Shown here: one piece after another, positions 3,889 through 6,893 of the stretch
How the letters are laid out: each line of letters begins with the position of its first letter
How positions within the stretch are numbered: the stretch's first letter is position 1
Source: Halococcus salsus
Lineage (GTDB): Archaea > Halobacteriota > Halobacteria > Halobacteriales > Halococcaceae
Reading direction: 5' to 3'
DNA length: 64,000 nt
Assembly (NCBI RefSeq): GCF_009900715.1
Contig: NZ_JAAAJC010000001.1
Coordinates: 124,001-188,000 of the forward strand
Translations under genes and position numbers: made by a program
Notes under the pieces: generated by a model
Seen by the model: only the letters and a program-made list of their open reading frames with translations
Told to the model about the DNA's origin: nothing
Database searches by the model: none

Positions 3889-5307
3889 TCAGACCCGCGT
3901 GACCTGCACCAGGTCGGTGACGACCTGCCAGACCTGTCGAACCACGATCTGGAGGTCGAACCAGAACGACTGTTCGTTGATGTATTTGATGTCGTAGCGG
4001 AACTTCGCCTGGGGGTCGGTGCTCGAGACCCGGTTGATCTGAGCCAGTCCCGTGAGGCCGGGCTTGACGAACCAGCGCTTGCGCCAGGTTCGGATCTCGG
4101 CTTCGAGTTTCGGCTCCTCGTCGACCCAGACCGCCCGGGGTCCGACCACGCTCATGTCGCCGACGAGGATCGAGACCAGCTGTGGGATCTCGTCGAAGTG
4201 GGTGCGTCGGAGCAGCCGGCCGACGCGGGTGATCCGCGTGTTCTCGCGGTCGTCTATCGGGGTCGCGTCCTCGCTGTCCGGCACCATGCTCCGGAACTTG
4301 AGCACCTGGAACGTCTCGCCGAACTCCGCGGTCCGTTCCTGGGCGTAGAACAGCGGGCCGCCGTCGTCGAGTTTGATCCCGACCGCGATGACGAGGATGA
4401 TGGGGAGAAGTGCGACGAGCCCGGCGAACGCGAAGCAGACGTCGAAGGCGCGTTTGACCGCGCGGTCCTGTGGGTCCCAGGGTTCGAGGTTGGTGTCGAT
4501 GAGCGTCTCCCCGCTCGCCTCGCTCGTGAGGACGCTGTCGGCGTGCTTTCGGTGCACTTTCGCGACCACGCCGTGGGTGTAACACGTCGCGAGCGCACCG
4601 AAGAACTCGGTTCGATCGGAGCGTTCGAACGCCAGCACGGCGGTGTCGATGTCGTGCTCGACCAGCACGTCGTCGAGGTCCGAGAGTCCCCCCAGACACT
4701 CGATCCCGTCGAGACGCGTCCCGATCCGGGTGCCGCCGTCGGCGAGTTCGACCGTCGCCCGGTCGGGTCCGGTCTCGTAGCGCATCGCGGGCGCGATGTA
4801 GCCGACGACGGGGAGGTCGGCGGTTCGGAGCACCTCGTCCATCGCATCGGGGTCGTCGCCGATGAGCAACACGCGGTCGGTCGTCGTCTCCGGTCGGCGG
4901 CGGATGGCGACGAACCACGCCGGCAGACCGATACACAACAGCAGGGTCGAAAGGAGGAGGGTCGTTCGCGGCAATCGGTAGGTGTAGTTGAAGTAGCCGA
5001 TCGCCGCGAGCGCGAGCGCGGCGGTCAGCACCCGTCTGAGGGTTATTGAGATCGTATCCAGGATCCGGCGTGGCTGTGGTTTGAACAGCGGGACCATGGC
5101 GATGAGAACGATCGGGAGCGTCGTCGCAACGGCTAAGAGCAGACCCGACCCGACGAGCACCGTCGGGTCGAGCCGGTCGAACGGCGGGATCGCCGTTATC
5201 GCGGCCTGGGCGAGCGGGTGGTCCGCGACGACGACCGAGAGGACGACGAGGACGCACGTACCGACGCTACTCGCGATGCGATATCGCCATCCGGTGTTGT
5301 ATCCCAT
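3889..5307 (-). CDS. Polyprenyl-phosphate sugar-1-phosphate transferase (WbaP/ExoY type)
   Basis: This 472-aa membrane enzyme should move a sugar 1-phosphate from a nucleotide sugar to a dolichyl or polyprenyl phosphate, starting assembly of a lipid-linked surface glycan. It has four hydrophobic segments in the first 130 residues, a divergent Rossmann-like (CoA-binding-like) middle with VLLIGDDPDAMDEVL, then the bacterial sugar transferase domain from about residue 280: KRAFDVCFAF, KLDDGGPLFYAQERT, FKFRSM-like LKFRSMVPD, RRTHFDEIPQLVSILVGDMS, VGPRA and PGLTGLAQI. The ATG at 5307 begins MGYNTGWRYR just ahead of the first membrane helix; a longer reading to 5487 would run into the tRNA fragment. 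The nearest glycan genes are 29 kb away, so it may serve that locus or another pathway. Confidence 0.88.
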   Translation of the reverse strand: MGYNTGWRYRIASSVGTCVLVVLSVVVADHPLAQAAITAIPPFDRLDPTVLVGSGLLLAVATTLPIVLIAMVPLFKPQPRRILDTISITLRRVLTAALALAAIGYFNYTYRLPRTTLLLSTLLLCIGLPAWFVAIRRRPETTTDRVLLIGDDPDAMDEVLRTADLPVVGYIAPAMRYETGPDRATVELADGGTRIGTRLDGIECLGGLSDLDDVLVEHDIDTAVLAFERSDRTEFFGALATCYTHGVVAKVHRKHADSVLTSEASGETLIDTNLEPWDPQDRAVKRAFDVCFAFAGLVALLPIILVIAVGIKLDDGGPLFYAQERTAEFGETFQVLKFRSMVPDSEDATPIDDRENTRITRVGRLLRRTHFDEIPQLVSILVGDMSVVGPRAVWVDEEPKLEAEIRTWRKRWFVKPGLTGLAQINRVSSTDPQAKFRYDIKYINEQSFWFDLQIVVRQVWQVVTDLVQVTRV

Positions 5308-5450: not shown

Positions 5451-5475
5451 TGCGCCAGCCGGGAGTCGAACCCGG
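5451..5475 (-). repeat. Duplicated 3' end of tRNA-Gly (attachment-site-like)
   Basis: These 25 bases match the T-arm, acceptor 3' strand and discriminator base of the complete tRNA-Gly(UCC) at 5972-5996 with one difference (A at 5457 against G at 5978). The change would leave a G-U wobble in the acceptor stem. The similarity stops exactly at the start of the T-arm. No D-arm or anticodon arm precedes it, so it is not a tRNA gene. It lies in the same orientation as the tRNA and 521 bp downstream of its 3' end, as expected for the far attachment site of an element inserted at the 3' end of a tRNA gene. Confidence 0.85.
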
Positions 5476-5483
5476 ACCAGCGG

Positions 5484-5885
5484 TCACAGCTCGTACTCAT
5501 CGGCCCATCGAATATCGGGGTGATCGACCGATGATTCGAATCGGAGAACGACGTTCGCAGCGGGTGCGTCGTCGAAATCGATCCAGTACAATGTCTCCTT
5601 TTCAGGACAGAAAACGAGATATGCATCGACTTCGTTCGCCCCATAGTAGCTATCGTTCGTCTCGGTTGCGTTCGGATTCGAACGTTTCAACGAGCACCGG
5701 CGCATTCGCTCGTCGTCGCGGAGCGTCGCGTGTTTGACCTGTATCTTCAGCAGCTCGTCATCGGTATCGAGAACGAGGTCGTATGGACAGTGGCCGGATG
5801 TGGGAACCGAGACCCGATAACCCAGCTCCACCAGCTCTGCAATTGCTCGCGTTTCGGCGATGTCCCCTTTCTGCCCGGTGTTCAT
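5484..5885 (-). CDS. PD-(D/E)XK endonuclease, group I intron-associated type
   Basis: The 133-aa protein has the pattern of free-standing or intron-borne homing endonucleases of the PD-(D/E)XK fold (PDDEXK_5, relatives of I-Ssp6803I): MNTGQKGDIAE with Glu11, PYDLVLD with Asp36, and KIQVK with Gln49 and Lys51 (the QxK variant), then YYGANEVDAYLVF. These residues would bind the metal and cut DNA. The ATG at 5885 puts the conserved KGDIAE motif at the N-terminus; upstream codons add only low-complexity sequence. The stop lies 9 bp from the duplicated tRNA-Gly 3' end and the start about 87 bp from the intact tRNA, so the gene fills the interval. There is no integrase gene and no intron structure that I can see. 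Confidence 0.75.
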   Translation of the reverse strand: MNTGQKGDIAETRAIAELVELGYRVSVPTSGHCPYDLVLDTDDELLKIQVKHATLRDDERMRRCSLKRSNPNATETNDSYYGANEVDAYLVFCPEKETLYWIDFDDAPAANVVLRFESSVDHPDIRWADEYEL

Positions 5886-5971
5886 CGTCGTACCACTCAC
5901 TACCGTCGACTCACTGCGCGATCGCACTTAGTCCTCCGGAGACGACAACGGTCTCCGAAGTGGAACGGTAC

Positions 5972-6042
5972 TGCGCCGGCCGGGAGTCGAACCCGGGCTA
6001 ATGGCTTGGAAGGCCATTGTCCTACCGCTAGACCACCGGCGC
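5972..6042 (-). tRNA. tRNA-Gly(UCC)
   Basis: The 71-nt gene has a 7-bp acceptor stem (5' GCGCCGG with CCGGCGC), an anticodon stem ATGGC/GCCAT, loop CTTCCAA with anticodon TCC at 6008-6010, and T-arm CCGGGTTCGACTCCCGG. The discriminator A is at 5972 and CCA is not encoded. Its last 25 bases are copied at 5451-5475. Confidence 0.95.
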
Positions 6043-6122: not shown

Positions 6123-6785
6123 CTAAGTCGGTTTCCCTTCGGCGCGCCCCGCGACCACCCCATAGCAGTTCCCGCGCTCCTCGAACGTCCGCTCGACGTC
6201 GAGCCGGCTGCGCTCCAGGTCGGTCGCGAACTCCGCGGGGTCGTAGATGTGGTAGTAGCGGGCCACCGTCTCGCCGCCGGGCAGCGTCCAATCGACGGTG
6301 GTGTCGAACCCCGTCTCGCGAGCGAACCGGTCGTGGGTCGTACTCCACGCGCTGACGAGCGCGCGCCCACCCGGCGTGAGGACCCGCGCGAGCTCGTCGA
6401 GGCTCGCGAGGCGCGCGTCCCGACTCGGGAGGTGGTGGACCGCGGCGATGTAGACCGCGAGCCCGACGCTCCGTGGGGCGATCGGGAGGGCCGTCGCGTC
6501 GCCCTGGCAGAGGTCGACCGCGAACCCGCGCTCCCGGCGGCGTTCGCGTGCGGCGTCGAGCACGCTCCGGCTCAGATCGACCCCGACGACCCGTTCGACG
6601 CGCTCGGTCATCACCTCGGCGTGGCGCGCGTTGCCACAGCCGAGGTCGAGCCCGCGGTCGACACGGTCCGCAGCCTCGACGAACCGCTCGACCGCGGGCC
6701 ACGGATGCTCGCGCGTGCGCGAGAAGTGCCCACCGATGCGGTCGTAGGTCTCGCGCACGTCGCGCCGGCTCGGCTCGTCTCCCAT
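6123..6785 (-). CDS. Trm9-like tRNA wobble-uridine carboxyl methyltransferase
   Basis: The 220-aa class I SAM methyltransferase follows yeast Trm9 closely in layout: ETYDRIGGHFSRTREHPWP (residues 12-30), SAM motif I LDLGCGN (46-52), DATALPI, IAAVHH for the post-II region, GGRALVSAWS, and the C-terminal RYYHIYDPAEF and the NCYGVVAG end. Trm9 makes the methyl ester of 5-carboxymethyl-uridine at the wobble base of tRNAs such as Gly(UCC) and Arg(UCU). The neighbouring gene is a tRNA-Gly(UCC), a plausible substrate. I chose the ATG at 6785 because the Trm9-type domain starts there; a TTG at 6890 would add 35 residues and would sit only a few bases from a TATA-like element. Confidence 0.8.
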   Translation of the reverse strand: MGDEPSRRDVRETYDRIGGHFSRTREHPWPAVERFVEAADRVDRGLDLGCGNARHAEVMTERVERVVGVDLSRSVLDAARERRRERGFAVDLCQGDATALPIAPRSVGLAVYIAAVHHLPSRDARLASLDELARVLTPGGRALVSAWSTTHDRFARETGFDTTVDWTLPGGETVARYYHIYDPAEFATDLERSRLDVERTFEERGNCYGVVAGRAEGKPT

Positions 6786-6893
6786 CTCGCCGCCTGCTTC
6801 GGGGTCCTCGGGGTTAACCCATCGGAAACGAGCGGACACGGTCGGTGTATCCACCTCGCGGTCGTCGAACCCGCTACCACGCGTTACCAATTG

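Follow-up and report, generated by a model that had tools for sequence, protein, structure and literature searches.

We propose that the endonuclease gene lying behind tRNA-Gly(UCC) in a 64,000-nucleotide stretch of Halococcus salsus DNA (the whole of which we call the window) encodes an I-Ssp6803I-family homing endonuclease that stands free, outside any intron, and parasitises tRNA genes, and we consider the complete homing cycle set out below to be likely. As judged by comparison between genomes, the elements on which this cycle is built are the family of the protein, its association with tRNA genes, the empty sites, the joint transfer of tRNA and ORF in one relative (genome G236) and the co-occurrence of ORF and intron at tRNA-Lys. 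The tRNA-Gly of the window is probably at once the target, the left homology arm and the cargo of the element, and our survey suggests that nearly all family members examined may spread by cutting tRNA genes and substituting their own accompanying copy.

A single endonuclease gene between tRNA-Gly and a copy of its 3′ end

The first-pass annotation had described a complete tRNA-Gly(UCC), one PD-(D/E)XK endonuclease gene and a near-perfect copy of the tRNA end, and ARAGORN, the ORF and a repeat score confirmed this layout. All of it lies on the minus strand: tRNA-Gly (anticodon UCC/TCC) at 5972-6042, a spacer of 86 nt (5886-5971) between the tRNA 3′ end and the ATG of the ORF, the ORF of 133 aa (ATG at 5885, stop at 5484; 147 aa if read from an alternative GTG at 5927), and, at 5451-5475, a 25-nt direct repeat of tRNA-Gly positions 47-71, identical at 24/25 positions. 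The element, taken as running from the 3′ end of the tRNA through the copy, measures about 521 nt. Its neighbours, also on the minus strand and named by eye, are a sugar-transferase-like gene downstream (3889..5307, its start set from the start conserved in relatives) and a methyltransferase-like gene upstream (6123..6890); both served as anchors in the search for empty sites.

The PD-(D/E)XK ORF alone fills the interval between tRNA-Gly and the copy, which holds no integrase or other notable ORF, as had been claimed. The view of the element as a unit without intron or intein likewise held: none was found around the ORF, ARAGORN reported no intron in the window tRNA-Gly, and Rfam no group I intron at the locus, the tRNA being uninterrupted. 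The spacer RNA folds to a stable hairpin, with its stem-loop at about 5934-5960 (-35.6 kcal/mol, z -2.36), and by eye no A/T-rich promoter box was seen in these 86 nt. The endonuclease ORF is single-copy in the window genome.

The protein belongs to the I-Ssp6803I family

The window protein is a member of the I-Ssp6803I (PF11645) homing endonuclease family, and the first-pass assignment to the homing-endonuclease type is borne out. PF11645 (PDDEXK_5) is its sole significant Pfam family (E 4.3e-33, 114.7 bits against a cut-off of 26.1), with the GIY-YIG nuclease domain absent; it matches the sequence of I-Ssp6803I itself (PDB 2OST) with E 5e-8; and a search with its AlphaFold model (pLDDT 90.6) returned four 2OST chains as the only PDB matches below E 0.001, with a best TM of 0.81. 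Residues E11, D36, Q49 and K51, which we take to be the active-site positions of I-Ssp6803I, are invariant across 83 homologues. The gene appears to be maintained, since comparison with the ORF of G255 gave dN 0.013 and dS 0.067, as expected under purifying selection. Many members found at tRNA-Pro (L092, L104, L107, L110, L254-L267) have open frames of ~265-400 aa, a length which suggests that an extra domain may be fused to the nuclease.

Empty sites and exchange of the tRNA body

The chromosomal tRNA-Gly site is empty, that is without the ORF, in the congeners G209, G157 and G252, with the geometry predicted from the filled site: 139-159 nt separate the tRNA end from the downstream gene. 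The corresponding stretch in the window is about 660 nt long, and there the 25-bp copy stands about 140 nt from that gene, at the distance of the tRNA end in the empty sites. The ORF-less tRNA-Gly allele begins GCGCCAGTGG; the tRNA-Gly of the window genome (G000) is 71/71 identical to those of the ORF-bearing species G255 and G236 and 59/71 identical to those of the ORF-less congeners.

The comparison of G236, whose ORF is 70% identical to that of the window, with its close relative G157, which has no ORF, carries most of our argument. These two genomes are 93% identical, without gaps, over the 120 nt before the tRNA, 94% over the 190 nt preceding the downstream gene and 97% within that gene. 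Their tRNA-Gly genes, in contrast, differ at 12/71 positions. Instead, G236 shares its tRNA-Gly sequence with G000 and G255, genomes in which the flanks are just 64-78% alike. Its ORF is followed by CGCTGGCGCA, the end of the ORF-less tRNA-Gly type, and then by resident flank. A divergent tRNA within conserved flanks, together with a remnant of the resident gene, argues that the tRNA body and the ORF arrived together. Placed by this alignment, the junctions are at the tRNA 5′ end and inside the tRNA 3′ end, which suggests intronless homing with tRNA replacement. The earlier idea was that the element restores the tRNA end as it inserts; in G236 more than that end was restored, the whole tRNA body having been exchanged along with the ORF.

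Similarly, at tRNA-Pro, G073 (with the ORF) and G044 (without) have flanks 92-97% and 94.6% identical, and G073 has a 492-nt insert immediately behind the tRNA; the changes between the two tRNAs lie in the anticodon stem and T-arm, and a far-side copy of the tRNA is absent from this pair. Both cases show the same co-conversion pattern, with identities of 59/71 for tRNA-Gly and 64/73 for tRNA-Pro within flanks that are 92-97% identical. The window type of tRNA-Gly also occurs without the ORF in a sister genus (99%), and therefore the tRNA of the window lineage could be ancestral rather than imported.

Copies of the tRNA 3′ end

The copy at 5451-5475 covers most of the T-arm, the acceptor strand and the discriminator base, and is not a chance repeat, as it scores 22, where flanking and shuffled sequence reaches 7-10. 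Its single mismatch, CTGGCGCA for CCGGCGCA, is the acceptor of tRNA-Gly in the ORF-less congeners. The copy is most likely a remnant of the 3′ end of the former resident tRNA, serving as the right homology arm; we favour this reading because the empty sites have no downstream copy and because G236 has a resident remnant at the same place. Only in G236 is the remnant unambiguous, the window case resting on one diagnostic base and on position.

The main competing explanation is that the copy is unrelated to the endonuclease, being one of the copies of tRNA 3′ ends that are common in haloarchaea, and that the ORF landed between tRNA and copy. Such copies, under a criterion of at least 20/25 matches within 700 nt downstream, follow 17/25 ORF-less tRNA-Lys loci (with 0/25 upstream), and only four of 131 loci with the ORF behind a tRNA have a partial copy beyond the ORF (the window, G255, L141 and L202). 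Against this explanation, G209, G157 and G252 have no such copy at their empty tRNA-Gly sites, that of the window lies where the resident tRNA would be expected to end and has the acceptor base of the ORF-less type, and the remnant in G236 is unmistakable. For the window we therefore regard an unrelated copy as unlikely.

Across the loci counted, copies are common without the ORF and rare with it, and so the layout cannot define the element; we rejected the 25-bp copy as its hallmark, and copies of tRNA ends are a haloarchaeal phenomenon separate from the endonuclease. Since relatives such as the tRNA-Pro member in G073 carry the gene without the repeat, which the first-pass annotation had named as contrary to its reading, the repeat falls as the defining feature and as a general layout. 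A copy running from the T-loop to the 3′ end stands ~75-210 nt behind many haloarchaeal tRNAs (L222-L251, L045, L051, L056, L057, L018 and others). Within some of these inserts the T-arm is copied in inverted form (GGATTTGAACC ... GGTTCAAATCC); they need no ORF and look like small MITE-like elements that target the T-arm of the tRNA.

Relatives of the endonuclease and their tRNA neighbours

Relatives of the window ORF are present in 184/391 Halobacteria genomes. We examined 160 haloarchaeal loci, picked among the higher-scoring matches and with one locus counted twice, and found a tRNA gene within 1 kb in 155, on the same strand as the ORF in all 155; at one additional locus, L125, the tRNA gene itself contains the ORF (see below). 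The median distance from ORF to tRNA in the first set of haloarchaeal loci was 168 nt, and we estimate that chance would place one gene at that distance and on that strand in about 1.5% of cases. Of the prediction that homologues would lie beside tRNA genes with duplicated 3′ ends, the first half was thus upheld and the second was not, given the rarity of far-side copies.

The partner is tRNA-Asp(GUC) in about 100 haloarchaeal loci, followed by Pro(UGG), Met/Asn, Lys(UUU), Gly(UCC), Gln, Arg(UCU), Ser, Tyr and Leu; tRNA-Arg(UCU) was read by eye, because its intron led ARAGORN to miscall it. On the ORF tree the type of tRNA is strongly clustered (16 changes against 37.5 in shuffles), and ORF clades with one tRNA type cross host families. 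A class-wide table of tRNA-Asp allele against ORF presence is not used as evidence here, because alleles are confounded with families. The ORF stands between two complete tRNA-Asp genes at L006, L018, L021, L030, L064, L069, L073, L101-L103, L108 and L109, and the paired genes are identical wherever both were compared, which resembles the segmental amplification of tRNA genes driven by SegB (see below).

The loci with no tRNA near are a divergent chromosomal clade (L134, L135, L137), L265 and two plasmid loci; the plasmid members, L146 and L147, come from Halosegnis and Halorubrum and possibly have a different target. In each of the 12 distinct phage and halovirus records examined, a tRNA lies no more than ~0.5 kb from the ORF. 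All five bacterial loci adjoin a tRNA (four Ktedonobacteraceae, one Actinomycetota; L360, L361, L363, L366, L367), with the ORF running opposite to it; in four of them, arranged convergently, the ORF end is near, abuts or overlaps the tRNA 3′ end. Outside Halobacteria, but in the same phylum, PF11645 gave sub-threshold matches only. Scans of contigs gave no matches with the window protein alone, and a 27-row alignment proved too diverse; an alignment of the tRNA-Asp clade gave 77 named loci, and the viral contig scan one partial match.

This family-wide context bears on three further explanations. The strict same-strand linkage to tRNAs and the strongly conserved active site could befit a housekeeping or regulatory gene cotranscribed with tRNAs (acting, for example, in tRNA processing or repair) and not selfish at all; however, the gene is patchily distributed, copies in G323, G273 and L289 are broken, its partners are many unrelated tRNA species, phages carry members, and the nearest characterised relative is a DNA homing endonuclease, all of which makes such a role very improbable. 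There is equally little to be said for the ORF as the nuclease half of a defence or addiction system, with the adjacent tRNA as a protected or decoy tRNA: tRNA-Asp is often duplicated beside the ORF, and phage SegB loci link tRNA-linked nucleases to anti-defence (PMC13096335), but the fold is that of a DNA endonuclease and filled and empty sites with tRNA replacement would be left unexplained. Lastly, we rejected a relic of an integrase-type provirus or plasmid cut down to one cargo gene, which we hold to be highly improbable although a direct repeat of a tRNA 3′ end is the classic att pattern and archaeal elements often use tRNA 3′ ends, given the missing integrase at the window locus, an ORF under purifying selection, and relatives at no fewer than seven tRNA species across many families, most of them lacking a second att copy.

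Interrupted tRNA-Lys genes

A pattern search found an interrupted tRNA-Lys(UUU), with introns of about 34-41 nt, in 20/391 Halobacteria genomes (L271-L290). The ORF lies within 1.5 kb of nine of these 20 (one ORF being broken) and of none of 30 uninterrupted tRNA-Lys genes (L222-L251), a difference with P 7e-5 in a test that ignores shared ancestry; every ORF found at tRNA-Lys comes with an intron. Among congeners with alignable tRNA-Lys sites, G040 and G152 have intron and ORF, G190 the intron alone and G112 neither. At L125 (G021, about 1050-2000) the ORF, read by eye, lies within the intron of tRNA-Lys(UUU), with exon halves on both sides, and to our knowledge no endonuclease gene has been described within the intron of an archaeal tRNA. 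The tie between ORF and intron at tRNA-Lys suggests that collaborative homing may operate there.

A proposed homing cycle

We propose that the enzyme would make a break within the tRNA gene of an ORF-less tRNA-Gly allele, and that repair would use a donor carrying tRNA and ORF. Homology would be supplied on the left by the body of the tRNA and on the right by its 3′ end, or by what remains of that end past the ORF. The donor tRNA would thereby overwrite the resident one, and part of the resident 3′ end would be left on the far side of the ORF; this is the outcome that genome comparison shows in G236. The occupied allele is probably not recut, because the donor tRNA differs from the resident; at tRNA-Lys it may be the intron that protects it. 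The ORF is probably transcribed from the tRNA promoter, because it lies downstream of the tRNA and strictly on the same strand. The sporadic presence of the gene, its broken copies and the clustering of tRNA type by ORF clade fit this cycle.

tRNA genes are usually treated as vertically inherited; in the present case they appear to be exchanged between species by a selfish endonuclease as part of its own movement. With the tRNA as both target and homology arms, such movement would be possible without shared flanking DNA. The tie to tRNA-Lys introns would, if true, be a concrete route by which archaeal tRNA introns are gained. For many proteins whose sole annotation is ‘group I intron-associated PD-(D/E)XK endonuclease’, the association with tRNA genes also points to a likely target. 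More broadly, we lean towards regarding the whole I-Ssp6803I family as a guild homing to tRNA genes in archaea, bacteria and phages, which may drive tRNA replacement in haloarchaea and spread tRNA introns by collaborative homing, the association of I-Ssp6803I itself with a group I intron being secondary.

Comparison with known systems

I-Ssp6803I of Synechocystis (PDB 2OST; PF11645) and the window enzyme have in common their family, fold, active-site positions and tie to a tRNA gene. I-Ssp6803I is reportedly encoded inside a self-splicing group I intron of tRNA-fMet, whereas the window ORF stands free behind its tRNA with no intron. Mobile ORF elements of fungal mitochondria carry a duplicated gene 3′ end; there too, an endonuclease ORF brings a new 3′ portion for the host gene and the old end is displaced downstream, but these elements concern protein genes, mitochondria and other endonuclease families.

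In the open-access literature searched we found no published description of an archaeal tRNA-linked system, and did find SegB and reviews. SegB of T-even phages is reported to be a free-standing GIY-YIG homing endonuclease adjoining tRNA genes of many isotypes, which cuts within tRNA genes and drives inheritance and amplification of the tRNA region (PMC13096335 and a 2008 NAR paper that it cites). In its behaviour the window ORF resembles free-standing homing endonucleases, and SegB offers the best comparison, since both are free-standing beside tRNA genes; SegB has a different nuclease fold and is carried by phage genomes, the window ORF by a cellular chromosome.

One review covers both the intronless and the collaborative pathway of homing (PMC3984707). 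In collaborative (trans) homing, a free-standing endonuclease adjoins a gene whose intron destroys its site (PMC3984707). The window tRNA-Gly is without an intron, and that of tRNA-Lys is of the archaeal splicing-endonuclease type and not group I as in collaborative homing, but the tRNA-Lys loci match that pathway in having ORF and tRNA intron together.
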